From Acidobacteriota bacterium (GTDB taxonomy: Bacteria > Acidobacteriota > Vicinamibacteria > Vicinamibacterales > JAKQTR01), in the NCBI GenBank assembly GCA_026393755.1, contig JAPKZO010000031.1, forward strand, positions 1 to 64,000: a stretch of 64,000 bases of DNA, given 5' to 3'. Below, in pieces: positions 30,617 to 38,967 of this stretch. Below the pieces are notes generated by a model. The model was not told where the DNA came from. It did no database searches and was given only the letters and a program-made list of their open reading frames with translations. Both the position numbers and the translations under genes were made by a program. The stretch's first letter is position 1. The number at the start of each line of letters is the position of its first letter.

Positions 30617-31294
30617 GTGCTGCTTGTCTTTGATTTCGACGGAACGCTGGTGGATTCGATCGTCGACCTGACCGAGTCGGCCAGCGATCTCTCTGAGGAG
30701 TACGGCGGGAAACGGCTCGACCTTCCCGCGGTCACCTTGATGGTCGGCGAAGGTGCGCACACGCTGGTAGAGCGCATCCTGTCCACAGCCGGCGTCGCGG
30801 ATCAGCCGGCTGGTGCGCTCAGCCGATTCCTGGAGATCTACGATCGACGCATGCTCGATCACACCGTCCCCTATCCGGGGATGATCGACACCCTGACGAC
30901 GATCAGTCGCATCCACCGGCTGGCGATGCTGACCAACAAGCCCGAACAGGCGACCCGGCGCATCATGATCCACTCGAGTCTCGATCGGTTCTTCAAGGAC
31001 TGCGTGTTCGGCGACGGAACGTCTGCGCGCAAGCCCGATACGGAAGGGCTGCGGTGGTTGATGGGGCGCCAGAGTGCCTCGGCGTCGCAGACCTGGCTCA
31101 TTGGCGATTCGGACGTCGACGTGGAGACCGCCCGCGCGGCCGGCGTCCAGTTGTGCGTCGCCCGCTACGGGTTCGGCTTCTGCCGCATCGACCCGACCAC
31201 GCTTCGGCCAGACGACGTCATCATCGACCGGCCTTCGGATCTGCTGGCGGCGCTGGAACCATCTAAACCTATCGCACGTAGATCGCAGAGTTGA
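30617..31294 (+). CDS. HAD-family phosphatase, phosphoglycolate phosphatase-like
   Basis: This protein of about 225 residues has all HAD motifs: DFDGTLVDS near the N-terminus, the TNK stretch in motif II, the Lys in RKPD, and GDSDVDVETARAAG. It probably dephosphorylates a small sugar phosphate such as 2-phosphoglycolate. GTG at 30617 is the only start giving motif I at the proper position. The 3' end overlaps the convergent M14 peptidase gene by 26 nt. It may be the fourth gene of the deoxyhypusine-synthase-like cluster, with a 17-nt gap. Confidence 0.85.
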   Translation: MLLVFDFDGTLVDSIVDLTESASDLSEEYGGKRLDLPAVTLMVGEGAHTLVERILSTAGVADQPAGALSRFLEIYDRRMLDHTVPYPGMIDTLTTISRIHRLAMLTNKPEQATRRIMIHSSLDRFFKDCVFGDGTSARKPDTEGLRWLMGRQSASASQTWLIGDSDVDVETARAAGVQLCVARYGFGFCRIDPTTLRPDDVIIDRPSDLLAALEPSKPIARRSQS

Positions 31295-34022
31295 AGACGA
31301 CGCGGAACGTGGCAAACGGCTGACCGCGCCATTGCGGACGGAAGCCGAGCAGCACGACATGTCCCTTGTCGAGCTCGACGTCGAGCGCCGCCGCCTTGCC
31401 CTGAAGGTACTTCTCGCCAATCAGGTATCCAGACTGCAGAGGCGAGCCAGTATCGGCGTACTTGGCGAGGATCGTGCCCTTGAATCCCACCTGGGGTTCG
31501 TAGACCGGGCTGCCATCGACAAACACGGCAGAGGTTTCGTCCATGCCGGCCATCACCGGATGCGTGGGGTCGGTCTGGACGTTGACAATCGATCCACGCA
31601 GGAAGAACTCCTCTGGCTTCAGGCCTTCGGCGACGTTCCTTACCGGCAACTTGAACTGCTGGATCGCGAATCGGCAGGCTGAGTTGAAACAGACTACCGT
31701 CCCGCCGTCCCGCACGAATGTCTCGAAGGCCTGGAGGTCGGCCGCCGTGAGGGCGTAGGCATACTCGGGACGCACCGCCCGGCCCGATCCGCCGCCGCGC
31801 CCGCCCTGGCCGCGGCCCGCCGCCGGTGCGGCGCCCGCTGCCCGAGCACCCGCTGGTGGCGCGGCCGCTGTTCCCGCTGCTCCTCGTGCGACCGCAGCCT
31901 GGCCGCCGCTCTCCACCGGAATGCGGGCATCATCAGCGAGGATGATGCTGTCGACCTTGTCGCGAAGCGGCGTCTTGAAATCCTCCGGATGGAGACTTAC
32001 GAACTCGAAGCCGTATTGCTCGAGCAGCCACCGGGTCCACCCTTCGTCCATACTGCCGGTCCACGGCTGATACAGTCCGATGCGGGGCTTCTTCATCGCC
32101 ACACCGGATGCTGACGTGCGCTCCGCGACCAGCGCCAGCGACTTGACGAGATCGGCCTGAGCGGCGTCGGGCAGTCCGGTGATGATGTAGCGGGCACCCG
32201 CGGCGCGAGCGCCCGCGGCGAACTGAACGCTGGCCCCAAGCTTCCAGGCACGCGTGATGGCTCGGAAGGCGTTGTTCTGGGCGGGATCGACCGCGAGCGC
32301 GGGACCGCTGCCAGAAAGCCTGCCGGCCGGCGGGATGATCGCCGCCGCGGAAGGACTTGAATCGAATCCGATGCCAGGCACGCTGTCGAACGGTGCGGGA
32401 TCGGCGGAGGCGGTCATGTTGTACGGAGTGGGCTTTGCCGTCGGCAGCGGTGTCGCGCCAAGCAGCTTCAGCTTCCCGCGCACGTCTTCGGCGAGCGGGC
32501 TGGCGACAGCGGTGACCTTGACGCCCATCTGAAGGGGCAGCGTCCACCCCGCCGCGTCGTAGGGCCTGACCGGCGGGCCGCCCGGGTACTGCCGCAGGTC
32601 TGGGTACTTCTGCGGGTTGAGCAACTCGCGCGCCATGGCGCCAAATTCCTGGTCGGTCGGCACCACCCACGTGCCGGCTGCGTACGTGACCTTGTCAATC
32701 GTGGCTGGCGAGGTCAACTGCGACACACGCACACCGCCAAAGGCGAGGCGGCGCAGCATCTCGACGGCTGCCACAGGGTCGCGCTGATCCTGCGGAATCA
32801 TGTACGCGTACGGCGCGGTCTTTCTGCCCGCGGCAATCTGGTCCCGGCCGGCCTGATAGCGGTTGTAGAGCAGCGATTCCCGGTACTTGGCGGCGAACTC
32901 GAGCGTCGAGATCGCGGCCGTCTCGTTGTAGGCCACCGCATCGCCCAACCGCCACCAGCCGCCAGGCCACGGGCTCGCGTAGAGGCTCTGCGGCCTGAGG
33001 TCGCGATAGCTTTCTGGAAGATCGTTCAGCGTGTACTCGCGCGGCGCGGCCATGTTGCCAGCTGTCTCCGTCCAGAACGCCGGGATGTTCTTGAACACCG
33101 GCGCGTAGTCCACGTAGCCGGGATACCACGCGTCAAACGCCTGCCCCATGTGCGTGGCGCCGACCTGTCCCCGCTCATCGAGGCTCTTCGCGATGGCCAT
33201 GCCGATCATGTTGATTTCGCGCGACACCACATACGGAGCGTCGAGGGCAATCGGTTCAGAAAAGGGCGGCAGCCAGATGCGGGTGGGGAAGGGCGCGGAC
33301 TGGTGGAACACGTAAATGATGTTCGGCTCCCACTGGCGCCAGAACTGCTCCATCACGCGCGACTCGATCATGTTCAGCATGTACGCGTCGCGGTTGTTGT
33401 CGTGGCCGACGTATTCCTGATAGAGGCGGGGCAGGCCCGACTGCTCATAGGGTGTCCCGGCGTTTTTCGCGAGCCATTCACCCACCATCTGCTGGCCGTC
33501 CGGATTCATGGTCGGCCACAGCATGAGGATGTCGTTGTCGAGGATGTCCTTGATGGCGGGCTCAGCCGCGCGGTTGAGGAGGTCGTAGGCCAGCTGCAGC
33601 GTCATCTGCGCGCCAGCCACCTCAGTGGCGTGGCAGCCGCCGTCGAGGTGGACAAATGCCTTGCCTTCGCGCGCGAGCCGGCGTGCTTCATCGTCGGAAA
33701 GGCCCTGCGGATGAGCCAGGCGCTGCGCGATCTCGCGGTACCGATCGACGTTGTCGAGGTTCTTCGCATTCGAGATGAGGGCGAAATACATGACGCGCCC
33801 GTCTGTCGTCTTTCCGGCTTCCACGAGCCTGATGGACGGACTGGCGGCGGCAAGCTTCTTCAGGTAGCTGATGGCCTGGTCGTAGGTCGCCAGCTTGTTG
33901 TCGGCTCCCGGCTTGAAGCCCAGAACCGACTCCGGTGTCGGCAACGTCCGGGACGCCGCCTGCATCACCGCCTGGCTCCCGAGCACGACGACGACCAGCA
34001 GTATCGCTACCTTGCGCATCAT
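31269..34022 (-). CDS. Secreted M14-family zinc carboxypeptidase
   Basis: This 917-residue exported peptidase has a signal peptide over about residues 1-23. The M14 catalytic domain contains the zinc motif HATE (His131, Glu134), the GHDNNRD stretch (206-212) and the third zinc ligand His240 in VFHQSAPFP. The C-terminal half has no domain I can name, except a Gly/Ala-rich low-complexity loop near residue 720 (RGAAGTAAAPPAGARAAG). It starts at the ATG at 34022, as GGGAGGAT precedes it by about 6 nt; a second ATG directly follows. Such large M14 proteins are frequent in Acidobacteriota. Confidence 0.88.
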   Translation of the reverse strand: MMRKVAILLVVVVLGSQAVMQAASRTLPTPESVLGFKPGADNKLATYDQAISYLKKLAAASPSIRLVEAGKTTDGRVMYFALISNAKNLDNVDRYREIAQRLAHPQGLSDDEARRLAREGKAFVHLDGGCHATEVAGAQMTLQLAYDLLNRAAEPAIKDILDNDILMLWPTMNPDGQQMVGEWLAKNAGTPYEQSGLPRLYQEYVGHDNNRDAYMLNMIESRVMEQFWRQWEPNIIYVFHQSAPFPTRIWLPPFSEPIALDAPYVVSREINMIGMAIAKSLDERGQVGATHMGQAFDAWYPGYVDYAPVFKNIPAFWTETAGNMAAPREYTLNDLPESYRDLRPQSLYASPWPGGWWRLGDAVAYNETAAISTLEFAAKYRESLLYNRYQAGRDQIAAGRKTAPYAYMIPQDQRDPVAAVEMLRRLAFGGVRVSQLTSPATIDKVTYAAGTWVVPTDQEFGAMARELLNPQKYPDLRQYPGGPPVRPYDAAGWTLPLQMGVKVTAVASPLAEDVRGKLKLLGATPLPTAKPTPYNMTASADPAPFDSVPGIGFDSSPSAAAIIPPAGRLSGSGPALAVDPAQNNAFRAITRAWKLGASVQFAAGARAAGARYIITGLPDAAQADLVKSLALVAERTSASGVAMKKPRIGLYQPWTGSMDEGWTRWLLEQYGFEFVSLHPEDFKTPLRDKVDSIILADDARIPVESGGQAAVARGAAGTAAAPPAGARAAGAAPAAGRGQGGRGGGSGRAVRPEYAYALTAADLQAFETFVRDGGTVVCFNSACRFAIQQFKLPVRNVAEGLKPEEFFLRGSIVNVQTDPTHPVMAGMDETSAVFVDGSPVYEPQVGFKGTILAKYADTGSPLQSGYLIGEKYLQGKAAALDVELDKGHVVLLGFRPQWRGQPFATFRVVFNSAIYVR

Positions 34023-34146
34023 GGATATCCTCCCGCGCGGTACCTTATCGTCGGGCCGCCTCAACTGCAAGCCGGTTTGTCGGCGGCGTCCTGAGCGCCG
34101 GGCAGTCACCGTGAATGCGGGCGACCCGGCAAGCGCGACGAGTCCG

Positions 34147-34554
34147 CTACCGGCCCGGCTGTAGCACGTTGAGCTTGAGGGCGCGCGCGGCAGCAGCCAG
34201 GCGGTCGTCGTAGGTGATGAATGCCTCCGGGTAGTCGCCAATCGAGAGTGCCGCGGCCAGGTGGAGGGCATCGAGCGATCGGATCATTGGAGGACCGACG
34301 TGCTCCGCGAGCCGCATGACCCCCGAATCGAGCCGGATGAGCGTCGTTGTTCTGAGGACACCATCAGCCCGGCGGCTCGCTGCGGCCGGAGCGCTGATGC
34401 GTCGCAGTGTCCTCCGACATTCGACCGCGGCCAGCTCACTTGAGACCCAGTCGGGCCAGTGTTCAAGTTCCCGTTCGAGCGCCACGCTTTCCCTTTCTGG
34501 CAGGATCAGCTTCATGAGTGCGGAGGAATCAAGATACACGGGCAGGAAGTTCAT
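34147..34554 (-). CDS. vapC: VapC-type PIN-domain toxin
   Basis: This 135-residue PIN ribonuclease has its acidic residues in order: Asp in YLDSSALMKL, Glu in AAVECRRTL, Asp in SLDALHLAAAL and Asp in ITYDDRLAAAA. Toxins of this class cut tRNA or rRNA. The ATG overlaps the antitoxin stop by 4 nt (ATGA), the normal VapBC arrangement. Confidence 0.87.
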   Translation of the reverse strand: MNFLPVYLDSSALMKLILPERESVALERELEHWPDWVSSELAAVECRRTLRRISAPAAASRRADGVLRTTTLIRLDSGVMRLAEHVGPPMIRSLDALHLAAALSIGDYPEAFITYDDRLAAAARALKLNVLQPGR

Positions 34555-34877
34555 ATCTTGTCTTCCCGCAACTCCTGAAGTGCCCGCTGAGCACGCTCGC
34601 CCAAGTCAGCAGGGATCTTCCCCTTGAGCGGAGGCAGGTCTTCGAGTCGCCTGGTGGCAGGAATCGCCCGTCCCGACGCGACCAGGCGCTCCACAAGCGT
34701 TGCTCCCGGGCGCAGCGGCACAAGCATCGCCACCGTGTGCCCCCGGTCGGTCACGTCGAGCGTCTCGCCCGCGACCACGCGTTCAAGGTACACGCTCAGG
34801 TTCTGGCGCAACTCCCGGACGCCGACCCGGCCGTTGATGGGGCCTCGACGCCGAACGGTCGTGATGTCGGTTCTCAT
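34551..34877 (-). CDS. vapB: VapB/Phd-type antitoxin
   Basis: This 108-residue partner of the PIN toxin has a Phd/YefM-like N-terminal DNA-binding fold (GVRELRQNLSVYLERVVAGE and VTDRGHTVAML) and a longer toxin-neutralising tail (LPPLKGKIPADLGERAQRAL). Two starts are possible, ATG at 34877 or at 34886, the latter inside the tandem repeat at 34878-34897. I prefer 34877 (MRTDITTV). Confidence 0.82.
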   Translation of the reverse strand: MRTDITTVRRRGPINGRVGVRELRQNLSVYLERVVAGETLDVTDRGHTVAMLVPLRPGATLVERLVASGRAIPATRRLEDLPPLKGKIPADLGERAQRALQELREDKI

Positions 34878-34897
34878 GTAGCACATGGTAGCACATG
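34878..34897. promoter_or_regulatory. Tandem 10-bp repeat at the vapB start
   Basis: GTAGCACATG occurs twice head to tail, exactly adjoining the vapB ATG. It is a likely operator for VapBC autoregulation. It lies in the 73-nt space shared with the divergent S9-M1 peptidase gene. Confidence 0.6.
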
Positions 34898-34950
34898 CTT
34901 CCGCCCCCCGGCACGGATATGATGGCGGATTGAAACCAGGGAGAACGTCC

Positions 34951-37900
34951 ATGTCATCGCGAGCTGATCGACTGCTTGTGTCCGCGCTTGTTGTCGTGTT
35001 CTGTGGAGGGGTGGTTGTCGAGTCCAGCCTGGCGCAAACGCCGGCACCGCCCGCACCACAGGCGCCACCGCCGATCACCGCTGCCGATTACGCGCGCGCC
35101 GAGCAGTTTCTGGGACCGGCCGTCAACCCGCTCGTGGTGGGCGGGAACGTGGCGCCCACCTGGCTGCCCGACGAGCGGTTCTGGTACAGAAGCACGACAG
35201 CGACCGGCTTCGAGTACGTGTTGATTGACCCGGTCGCCATGACGCGCACGCCGCTTTTCGACCACGCGAAACTGGCGGCACGACTCTCGGCGGCGGCGAG
35301 TGCGACGTTCAACCCGCAGCGTCTGGAGTTGGACGCGCTCGAGCTTGCGGTCGACGGCAAGGCGGTCTCGTTCAACGTGCAAGCGCGACGTTGGACATGC
35401 GACGTGACGGGGGCTGGCTGCACATCGGCAGGAGCCGCCTCGACCGGGCGCGGGGCTGCGGGTGGGGGACGGGGTGCCGGGGGACGCGGCGGCCGGGGCG
35501 GCGCCGGCGCCTCCGGCAACATTGCGGTGGCTTCACCCGACGGGAAGCGCGCGGTCTTTATCCGCGACTGGAATCTATGGGTGCGCGACGTCGCGAGCGA
35601 CCAGGAACGCCAACTCACGAACGATGGCGTGAAGTACTTCGGCTACGCCACCGACAACGCCGGCTGGAGCAGCAGCGATCGCGCGATCGTCGTCTGGTCT
35701 CCCGACTCGACGAAGGTCGCGACCTTCCAGCAGGACGAGCGAGAGGTGGGCGAGATGTACCTCGTCACGACGCCCACCAGTCCGGTTGGCCATCCGACTC
35801 TGCGCGTCTCCAAGTTTCCGCTGCCGGGCGATCGGGTGATGGCCATGATCCACCGGGTCGTCATCGACGTGGACTCCGGACGCGTCACGCGCATCCAGAT
35901 GCCGCCCGACTATCACCGCGCCACCCTGGGTGACGACATTTCGCTGCGCGACTTTCAATGGAGCCCGGACGCCACTCAGTTGGCCTTCGCATCTGTCTCG
36001 CGCGATCACAGGCAGGCGACACTGCGCGTCGCCGACGTAGCGACGGGTGCCGTGCGCACGGTATTCAGCGAGACGGTCAAGACGCAGTACGAGGCACGGG
36101 CCGGCTGGCACACGCTCTGGGCCACCAACGAGGTGATCTGGTATTCCGAGCGCGACAACTGGGGCCATCTCTATCTCTACGACCTGACCACCGGTGCGCT
36201 CAAGCACCAGATCACCAAAGGCGACGGCCCGGTGATGCAGGTTCTCAGGATTGACGAGAAGACGAGGACGATCTGGTTCGTCGCACAGGGACGGGACAAG
36301 GGTGAAGATCCGTACTTCAGGCATGTGTACCGGATCAGCCTGGATGGAACAGGCGACACGGCCCTCACGCCGGATTCCGGTGACCACGTCGTGCAGTTGT
36401 CGCCATCGGGGCGTTACCTGATTGACACGGTCTCAACTCCCGAACGCGAGCCGGCGGTGAGTCTGCGCGACGACAGCGGCAAGCGCATCATCATGCCGAT
36501 CGAGAAGGCGGACATCTCAAAGCTGCTGGCGATCGGCTGGAAGCCGCCCATCCCCATCAAGATGACGGCGCACGACGGCACGACGGACATCTACGGGCTG
36601 CTCTTCCGGCCGGCCAGCTTCGATCCCACGAAGAAGTATTCCATCGTCAACAACGTCTATCCCGGGCCGCAGACCGGAAGCACAGGCAGCCGCGCATTCT
36701 CCGCCGCGAGAGGCGACCGCCAGGCCCTCGCCGAACTGGGCTTCATCGTGGTCACAATTGACGGGATGGGCACGCCGGGCCGATCCAAGGCCTTCCAGGA
36801 CGCGTATTACGGCGCGATGGGGCGCGACAACACGATTCCGGATCAGATCGCCGGGATGACCCAGTTGGCGAAGCAGTATCCGTGGATCGATCTCGATCGT
36901 GCCGGCATCTGGGGACATTCCGGAGGCGGGTTTGCGACCACCACAGCGATGTTCCGCTTCCCTGATTTCTTCAAAGCGGGTATCGCGGAATCGGGCAATC
37001 ACGACCAGCGCCTCAACGAGGACGACTGGGGCGAGCGCTACCAGGGCCTCGTGGTCCGCAACCCTGACGGCACCGACAACTACGACGCCGAGGCGAACCA
37101 GAACTTCGCGAAGAACCTGAAGGGGCACCTGCTGCTGGCCCACGGCACGATGGACACCAACGTGCCGCCGTATCAGACGATGCTCATCGTGGATGCGCTC
37201 ATCAAGGCCAATAAGGACTTCGACCTGCTGATGCTGCCGAACCAGAACCACGGGTACGGCAGTGCGTCAGCGTACATGATGCGTCGGCGATGGGACTACT
37301 TCGTCACGTGGCTCCGCGGCACCGAGCCGCCGAAGGAGTACCGGATGCAGGCCCAGGCCCAGGCCCAGGCGCAAGCGCCGACGCCAACAGCGCCACAATC
37401 GCCGCCACCACTCGCCGCCCCGACTCGCGCCGACATTCTCCGAGGCGAATACGGGCCGTATCGCGCCAACAACGATTTGCTGTCATATAGCCTGGACGTG
37501 CGCGTCGATCCGGAGAAGAAGTTGATCAGCGGGAAGAACACGATCCGGTTCCGGATGCTCCGCGACGACACACGCATCCAGCTGGACCTCGTTGCCAATC
37601 TGAACGTCGACAAGATCCTGCTCGGCAACGTCGAACTCAAGTATCAGCGGGAGATCAACGCCATCTTCGTGGACTTCCCGGAGACGCTCAGGAAGGGCCG
37701 GGTCTACGCGGTCAACTTCCACTACTCCGGTTCGCCGATCGAAACGGGGCGCTTTGGCGGCTTCACGTTCCGGAAGGACCCGGCGGGCCGCCACTGGATC
37801 AACACGTCGTGCCAGGGCCCCGGTGCGAGCGTCTGGTGGCCCAATAAGGATCAGCAGCGCGACGAAGTGGAAAACATGCGGCTCAGCGTGTCGGTGCCAA

Positions 37901-38967
37901 CGGATCTGGTGGATGTGTCCAATGGCCAGTTTCTGGGCAAGACCGATCTGGGCGATGGCTACACGCGCTACGACTGGCAAATCCATTACCCCATCAACAG
38001 CTACAGCGTGTCGCTCAACATCGGTGCGTACGTGCACTTCAGCGACGCGATTAGCGGCCTTCGGCTCGACTTCTACGCGCTGCCGGAGGATCTTGACAAG
38101 GCGAAGCGCCAGTTTGCGCAGGCGAAGGGGATGCTGGAAGCCTTCCAGAAGTACGTCGGCCCGTATCCGTTCCCCCGGGACGGCTACAAGCTGATTCAGG
38201 TGCCCTACTCAGGCATGGAGCATCAGAGCGCCGTCACCTACGGCAACCATTTCGCAAACGGCTATCTCGAGCGAGACTGGACGGGCGTTGGCATCAGCAC
38301 GAAATTCGACTTCATCATCATTCACGAAAGCGCGCACGAGTGGTTCGGCAACAGCGTCACGGCTGCCGACGTCTGCGACGAGTGGATCCACGAGGGCTGG
38401 GGAACCTACCTCGAAGGCGTGTACGTGGAACACCTGTTCGGCAAGGCGGACGCCCTGAAGTATCTGAACGGCTACAAGACGAAGGTCAGAAACCGCGAAC
38501 CGATCATCACGACGTGCGGCATCAGCAGAACGCCTCCCCAGGACATGTACTTCAAGGGCGCGCTCTTCATCAACACCCTGCGCAGCCTGGTCGATGATGA
38601 TCGCCGGTGGTGGAACCTCGTGCGCGGGTTCTACTCCCGCTTCAAGTATCAGAACATCACGACGGGAGATGTCGTCACCTATTTCAACGCGAACACCGGC
38701 CGCAACTTGACGCCGATCTTCGACCAGTACCTGCGGCGCACCGAGTTGCCGACACTGGAGTTGCAATTCGACGAACCCGCTGGCACCGTGTCGTATCGGT
38801 GGAAAGCCGACGAAAAGGCATTCGCGATGCCCGTGAAGGTCGGCCGGAAGGACGCGTGGCAGGTCATCACGCCGACGACCGAGTGGAAGACGATCGCCCT
38901 GGGGATGAAGGTGGCGGAGTTCGACGTCGCGACCGATCTGTACTACATCAATGTCTCCCGAAAGTGA
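34951..38967 (+). CDS. Secreted S9 (DPP-IV-like) and M1 aminopeptidase fusion
   Basis: One uninterrupted frame of 1338 residues holds two complete peptidases. After a signal peptide (1-29), a DPP-IV-type propeller with an RGG-like loop near residue 165-190 is followed by an S9 hydrolase. Its triad is Ser657 (GHSGGG), Asp735 (TMDTNVPP) and His767 (NQNHGYG). A Gln/Ala then Pro-rich linker (about 799-830) leads to an M1 domain with HESAH (1125-1129) and Glu1148 at the exact HExxH-x18-E spacing. The two domains would both release N-terminal residues or dipeptides from peptides outside the cytoplasm. AGGGAG precedes the ATG at 34951. An internal AAGGAG 6 nt before ATG 37345 could allow separate M1 synthesis. 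Confidence 0.9.
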   Translation: MSSRADRLLVSALVVVFCGGVVVESSLAQTPAPPAPQAPPPITAADYARAEQFLGPAVNPLVVGGNVAPTWLPDERFWYRSTTATGFEYVLIDPVAMTRTPLFDHAKLAARLSAAASATFNPQRLELDALELAVDGKAVSFNVQARRWTCDVTGAGCTSAGAASTGRGAAGGGRGAGGRGGRGGAGASGNIAVASPDGKRAVFIRDWNLWVRDVASDQERQLTNDGVKYFGYATDNAGWSSSDRAIVVWSPDSTKVATFQQDEREVGEMYLVTTPTSPVGHPTLRVSKFPLPGDRVMAMIHRVVIDVDSGRVTRIQMPPDYHRATLGDDISLRDFQWSPDATQLAFASVSRDHRQATLRVADVATGAVRTVFSETVKTQYEARAGWHTLWATNEVIWYSERDNWGHLYLYDLTTGALKHQITKGDGPVMQVLRIDEKTRTIWFVAQGRDKGEDPYFRHVYRISLDGTGDTALTPDSGDHVVQLSPSGRYLIDTVSTPEREPAVSLRDDSGKRIIMPIEKADISKLLAIGWKPPIPIKMTAHDGTTDIYGLLFRPASFDPTKKYSIVNNVYPGPQTGSTGSRAFSAARGDRQALAELGFIVVTIDGMGTPGRSKAFQDAYYGAMGRDNTIPDQIAGMTQLAKQYPWIDLDRAGIWGHSGGGFATTTAMFRFPDFFKAGIAESGNHDQRLNEDDWGERYQGLVVRNPDGTDNYDAEANQNFAKNLKGHLLLAHGTMDTNVPPYQTMLIVDALIKANKDFDLLMLPNQNHGYGSASAYMMRRRWDYFVTWLRGTEPPKEYRMQAQAQAQAQAPTPTAPQSPPPLAAPTRADILRGEYGPYRANNDLLSYSLDVRVDPEKKLISGKNTIRFRMLRDDTRIQLDLVANLNVDKILLGNVELKYQREINAIFVDFPETLRKGRVYAVNFHYSGSPIETGRFGGFTFRKDPAGRHWINTSCQGPGASVWWPNKDQQRDEVENMRLSVSVPTDLVDVSNGQFLGKTDLGDGYTRYDWQIHYPINSYSVSLNIGAYVHFSDAISGLRLDFYALPEDLDKAKRQFAQAKGMLEAFQKYVGPYPFPRDGYKLIQVPYSGMEHQSAVTYGNHFANGYLERDWTGVGISTKFDFIIIHESAHEWFGNSVTAADVCDEWIHEGWGTYLEGVYVEHLFGKADALKYLNGYKTKVRNREPIITTCGISRTPPQDMYFKGALFINTLRSLVDDDRRWWNLVRGFYSRFKYQNITTGDVVTYFNANTGRNLTPIFDQYLRRTELPTLELQFDEPAGTVSYRWKADEKAFAMPVKVGRKDAWQVITPTTEWKTIALGMKVAEFDVATDLYYINVSRK

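Follow-up and report, generated by a model that had tools for sequence, protein, structure and literature searches.

The closest described relatives of the protein analysed here belong to two unrelated peptidase families. Enzymes of the dipeptidyl peptidase IV (DPPIV) type owe their action as dipeptidyl exopeptidases to a Glu-Glu motif, and propeller-gated S9 enzymes are limited to short peptides. In PmDAP IV, this double-Glu motif (Glu208-Glu209) binds the N-terminus of the substrate, and the S1 pocket consists of Asn614, Val639, Trp642, Tyr645, Tyr649, and Val692 (PMC5807507). The bacterial DPP IV/DAP IV enzymes (S9B), such as those of Pseudoxanthomonas (5YP1) and Stenotrophomonas (2ECF), have in common with the S9 half of our protein the propeller and hydrolase fold, the catalytic triad, the oxyanion Tyr, and an Asn that follows the catalytic Asp. 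They differ from it in that the fused protein lacks the double-Glu motif, has changed five of the six S1 residues, and carries an attached M1 peptidase. Among solved structures, the best match of the S9 half, by both sequence and fold, is PTP-A of Porphyromonas (2D5L, 2DCM; phmmer 7e-64, Foldseek TMt 0.83). However, the two are only about 25% identical, the S9 half has no Glu at the position of the PTP-A motif HQREF, and PTP-A is not fused to an M1 peptidase.

For the M1 half, a similarly short enzyme without the C-terminal HEAT-like domain is the two-domain M1 peptidase of Deinococcus (6A8Z, 6IFF). These entries aligned over residues 45-469 of a 540-aa M1 query at low similarity (1e-15), and, unlike them, the protein described here is predicted to be exported as a fusion. 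The best fold match is to IRAP/ERAP1 (about 540 columns, E 6e-31, Foldseek), from which the M1 half differs by the absence of domain IV and by SGMEH in place of the exopeptidase motif GxMEN. Among the titles and abstracts consulted, and in one survey paper searched by terms, no description of an S9-M1 architecture was found, which is weak evidence of absence.

A single frame with two active sites

The window is a 64,000-nt stretch of an Acidobacteriota genome of the order Vicinamibacterales (GCA_026393755.1, contig JAPKZO010000031.1). On translation, one of its frames is free of stops over 1338 residues and joins an S9 peptidase to an M1 aminopeptidase (Table 1). The first-pass annotation had read it as a natural fusion with both active sites intact, and this reading is borne out at the residues that it named. 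The S9 triad (Ser657 in GHSGGG, Asp735, and His767), the oxyanion Tyr570 just upstream of the Peptidase_S9 domain, and the complete M1 zinc site HExxH-x18-E (HESAH at 1125-1129 and Glu1148) do not vary among the four fused genes that are full-length. The M1 catalytic Tyr of the thermolysin-like domain was assigned by alignment to Tyr1200, within DMYFKG, and is conserved. The SGMEH that stands at the exopeptidase motif (1087-1091) retains Met and Glu but neither the first Gly nor the Asn, and all 43 rows of an M1 alignment share GMEHQ. Some stand-alone S9 paralogues (family f11: L198, L199, L213) read GGSGGG at the nucleophile, whereas the fused copies keep GHSGGG.

Table 1. Features of the fused gene and its divergent neighbour, with positions in the window
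Feature	Position	Strand	Basis
Single ORF, 1338 aa: signal peptide, S9 peptidase, linker, M1 aminopeptidase	34951..38967	+	Pfam; fused frame also in five other genomes
Ribosome-binding-like AGGGAG region 5' of ATG 34951 (approximate)	34935..34942	+	Sequence
Sec-type signal peptide, aa 1-29 (MSSRADRLLVSALVVVFCGGVVVESSLAQ), predicted	34951..35037	+	Hydrophobic core, predicted by sequence
DPPIV_N beta-propeller domain, aa 192-498	35524..36444	+	Pfam PF00930, 1e-61
GWSSSDR, aa 238-244, site of the absent DPPIV double-Glu motif	35662..35682	+	Alignment
Peptidase_S9 alpha/beta-hydrolase domain, aa 590-789, Ser657/Asp735/His767	36718..37317	+	Pfam PF00326, 1e-45
Gln/Ala/Pro linker, aa 799-828, where an M1 signal peptide would lie	37345..37434	+	Alignment; low confidence in both models
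M1 aminopeptidase, aa 829-1338, without HEAT-like domain IV	37435..38964	+	Pfam PF17900 and PF01433; Foldseek
M14 zinc carboxypeptidase, divergent neighbour	31272..34043	-	Also adjoins the fused gene in G001

Within the M1 half, Pfam places Peptidase_M1_N at aa 845-1018 (5e-10) and Peptidase_M1 at aa 1057-1260 (7e-18); these N-terminal and catalytic domains are followed by a short beta domain that ends the protein (Pfam and model), and the model matches M1 domains I-III. The start codon is backed by the AGGGAG about 8 nt upstream and by a hydrophobic leader ending in SLAQ. Each of the five fused genes whose N-terminus can be read has a hydrophobic leader there, judged by sequence, which is consistent with the earlier proposal of an exported chain. 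Since no separate signal peptide precedes the M1 half, its export would have to depend on the leader of the S9 half. The linker that joins the halves, of about 30 residues, is of low complexity, variable, and of low confidence in the structure models, and its length differs among the fused genes by whole codons.

Specificity of the S9 half

A DPPIV_N propeller together with a Peptidase_S9 domain, one of the features expected of S9B enzymes, was found by Pfam and Foldseek, and the model of the S9 half (pLDDT 85, pTM 0.85) matches the DPPIV/PTP-A fold. The residues that determine specificity mostly differ. At the double-Glu site, the alignment sets GWSSSDR against ADEEMDR, that is, Ser-Ser in place of the Glu pair. 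The equivalents of the S1 pocket, also by alignment, are Gly658, Asn683, Gln686, Asn689, Trp693, and Val738, of which one in six is kept. Among close S9 relatives, both fused and stand-alone, about 40 extend over this position in the alignment, and they likewise have no Glu pair. As controls, the same alignment recovers the pair in 2ECF, and a different S9 gene in the window genome (G000:C5) reads YGEELN and has DPPIV-like S1 residues. One acidic residue, Glu690, is kept; it aligns with Asp663 of human DPP4, Asp646 of PmDAP IV, and Glu636 of P. gingivalis PTP-A, so some recognition of the N-terminus may still be possible. Judged by these residues, DPPIV-type specificity is probably absent from the S9 half, and the name "dipeptidyl peptidase" that it was first given is not upheld.

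Conservation and origin of the fusion

The fused frame was looked for in 162 genomes of the order Vicinamibacterales and occurs in six, from two families: the window genome (G000), G001, G034, G360, G014, and G051. A search for the same domain order in related genomes had been proposed with the first annotation; it thus yielded the fused frame in five further genomes and not separate genes alone. The window protein is 88% identical to that of G001 and 74% to that of G034; in G051, the end of a contig cuts the gene, yet the joint is spanned in frame. Between G000 and G001, dN/dS is 0.11 for the S9 half, 0.12 for the linker (with few sites), and 0.10 for the M1 half, and strong purifying selection acts on each half in the window genus (dN/dS about 0.1). 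For more distant fused pairs, the two domains give 0.17-0.34, with synonymous sites starting to saturate. The S9-M1 fusion is a natural one, real and conserved.

In G014, the propeller of the S9 half is shorter by about 180 residues, missing in frame from the fused gene (L214:367-3762, minus strand; G014:C177). The gap falls between RQ(L/V)T and QIT-G repeats on a low-coverage contig and is either a real shortening or an assembly collapse.

The genes around the fusion are conserved between G000 and G001. In the window genus, the M14 carboxypeptidase gene adjoins the fusion divergently, at a distance of 115 bp in G001. In the window, this interval holds a PIN toxin/Phd-YefM-like antitoxin pair (34147-34895, minus strand), which looks like a recent insertion in this genome since the same interval measures only 115 bp in G001. 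Around the G034 and G360 genes, no neighbour of the window turned up within the 7 to 15 kb inspected, and the G014 flank has, of the window neighbours, only a distant M14 homologue. As these flanks are unlike those of G000 and G001, the fused unit stands in differing gene contexts in two families.

The order has 32 further genomes with an M1 of the fused type outside an S9 fusion, and no second copy was found in any genome that has the fusion. Just ahead of the M1 domain, 102 of 120 non-fused M1 frames show a hydrophobic stretch resembling a signal peptide, against none of the six fused genes, which agrees with the initial observation that the linker occupies the place at which an M1 on its own has its signal peptide. 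Many stand-alone M1 proteins have a Pro/Ala-rich stretch directly after the leader; the 3' part of the linker thus plausibly derives from the former mature N-terminus of M1, while its 5' part (PPKEY-) is the tail of S9.

At least four of the fused genomes (G000, G034, G014, and G360) also keep a stand-alone S9 gene of the same subfamily; that of the window genome (G000:C29) is 70% identical. In the S9 tree, the fused domains fall in one supported group, which also includes a stand-alone gene of G053. The M1 tree gives no support for a single fused clade and no rejection of it, and a single fused clade is not rejected in either tree (AU p 0.115 for S9, 0.18 for M1). In G053, the fused-type S9 (L196, G053:C86; ending PPKEYRIGS-stop) and the M1 (L179, G053:C29) are separate genes on different contigs, representing either a pre-fusion state or a later split. 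Because of these separate genes, one fusion followed by splitting and two fusions are both possible readings of the sequences.

A natural counterpart is found in G244, an Acidobacteriota genome of another family. Here members of the same two branches lie 12 bp apart on the same strand, yet as two genes in the reverse order: the M1 (76% identical) comes first, and the S9 behind it (69% identical) starts at a separate ATG and carries its own leader. S9 genes otherwise seldom adjoin stand-alone M1 genes, their count nearby being about a guessed chance level on a rough estimate. Origin of the fusion from a common S9-M1 neighbour pair was considered and rejected, as the two branches lie close together in no genome but G244, and there in reversed order.

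Other architectures were seen among the M1 relatives. GC-rich long open frames 5' of several stand-alone M1 genes were counted as fusions only if they resembled real secreted proteins. In G003, a member of the window's family, an M1 without signal peptide lies behind a secreted protein of about 600 aa with no Pfam match (L183:1398-4832, minus strand; G003:C152), an independent-looking second N-terminal fusion of the same M1. C-terminal extensions of about 530 aa are carried by L053:1833-5093, L055:5512-9114, and also L051; that of L053 has a weak DUF1223/Omp28-like match (CPPC, thioredoxin-like), an unusual architecture for M1. In several Bacteroidota genomes (L101, L105, L107, L108, L109), M1 genes of this branch stand side by side as a tandem pair.

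Possible roles of the fused protein

The best explanation, which we consider probable, is that one exported chain carries two active-site-complete peptidases that act on short peptides. Working in the periplasm or extracellularly, the S9 half would cut oligopeptides with a specificity that is not of the DPPIV type and probably not after Pro. The tethered M1 half would strip N-terminal residues from the same peptides or from the S9 products, and the flexible linker would secure 1:1 co-export and closeness of the two enzymes. Hand-over of products between the two sites is possible. This explanation is supported by the recurrence of the fusion, which two families share across six genomes with differing flanks, and by the absence of an M1 leader in all six. 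Purifying selection on both halves, the lack of a separate copy of this M1 in the fused genomes, and the fold matches of the two halves fit it as well; the M1-S9 pair of G244 and the divergent M14 carboxypeptidase also point to peptide breakdown. However, the rarity of S9 neighbours around stand-alone M1 genes and the propeller residues missing in G014 speak against it, and the G003 protein suggests that the partner may serve export rather than shared chemistry.

On account of that G003 fusion, the strongest rival is that this line of M1 peptidases, having lost its signal peptide, survives attached to any upstream exported protein, the two activities being independent. The extra domains of other M1 relatives, such as the C-terminal DUF1223/Omp28-like region, fit this reading. 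The same is true of the joint model of both halves (1200 residues; pLDDT 68.6, pTM 0.49), which shows no confident packing between domains, although the S9 half was too shallow in the alignment used for this model to bear on packing. Nevertheless, the partner is the same S9 paralogue in six genomes of two families and in differing gene contexts, and G244 has its tight M1-S9 pair, so that mere sharing of a leader appears rather unlikely.

A stricter version of the preferred explanation is substrate channelling, in which an S9 half of new specificity would open oligopeptides and pass the new N-termini directly to the tethered M1, taking short peptides down to amino acids; we regard it as unlikely. 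Alternatively, the chain might be made whole and, once exported, be cleaved within the linker to release the two enzymes from each other. The linker is of the variable, low-complexity kind that such cutting would fit, but comparison of the fused genes revealed no conserved cleavage site in it, and this course of events seems quite unlikely.

The first-pass annotation had proposed a relay of two exopeptidases, an S9 dipeptidyl peptidase followed by an M1 aminopeptidase. The DPPIV-like fold with its triad and the acidic Glu690 would suit this role. However, the S9 half lacks the double-Glu anchor and differs at five of six S1 residues, its closest stand-alone relatives also lack the motif, and the DPPIV residues are kept by a different S9 gene of the same genome. 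The relay rests on a specificity that the S9 half is probably without; it is unsupported and very unlikely.

It had also been suggested that an internal start at ATG 37345 could yield a free M1 protein without an export signal, which would stay in the cytoplasm. The AAGGAG 6 nt before this ATG does exist, but it encodes the Lys-Glu of PPKEY, a sequence conserved at the C-terminus of S9, and recurs in most stand-alone S9 genes, with no M1 downstream. Among the fused genes, it reads AAGGAA in G001 and G014, and G360 has no ATG at the equivalent site. An internal ribosome site can thus be ruled out as a conserved feature, and such a start is highly improbable. Lastly, a stop or frameshift lost between two genes, conceivable in a multi-contig assembly, can be dismissed, given that the independent assemblies of the five other fused genomes share the open joint, with protein-level conservation, purifying selection, and whole-codon indels in the linker.

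The fusion is a new and apparently undescribed domain architecture, whose two parts come from known peptidase families but from branches of them that are uncharacterised. It is unusual for two peptidases with unrelated catalysis to be covalently joined. Two large acidobacterial branches would receive the labels "dipeptidyl peptidase IV" and "aminopeptidase N", yet they differ at the residues that these names imply, which makes automated annotation of protein turnover doubtful for both branches in these soil bacteria. Together with its natural unfused relatives, the fused enzyme offers a ready test of whether tethering speeds peptide breakdown.
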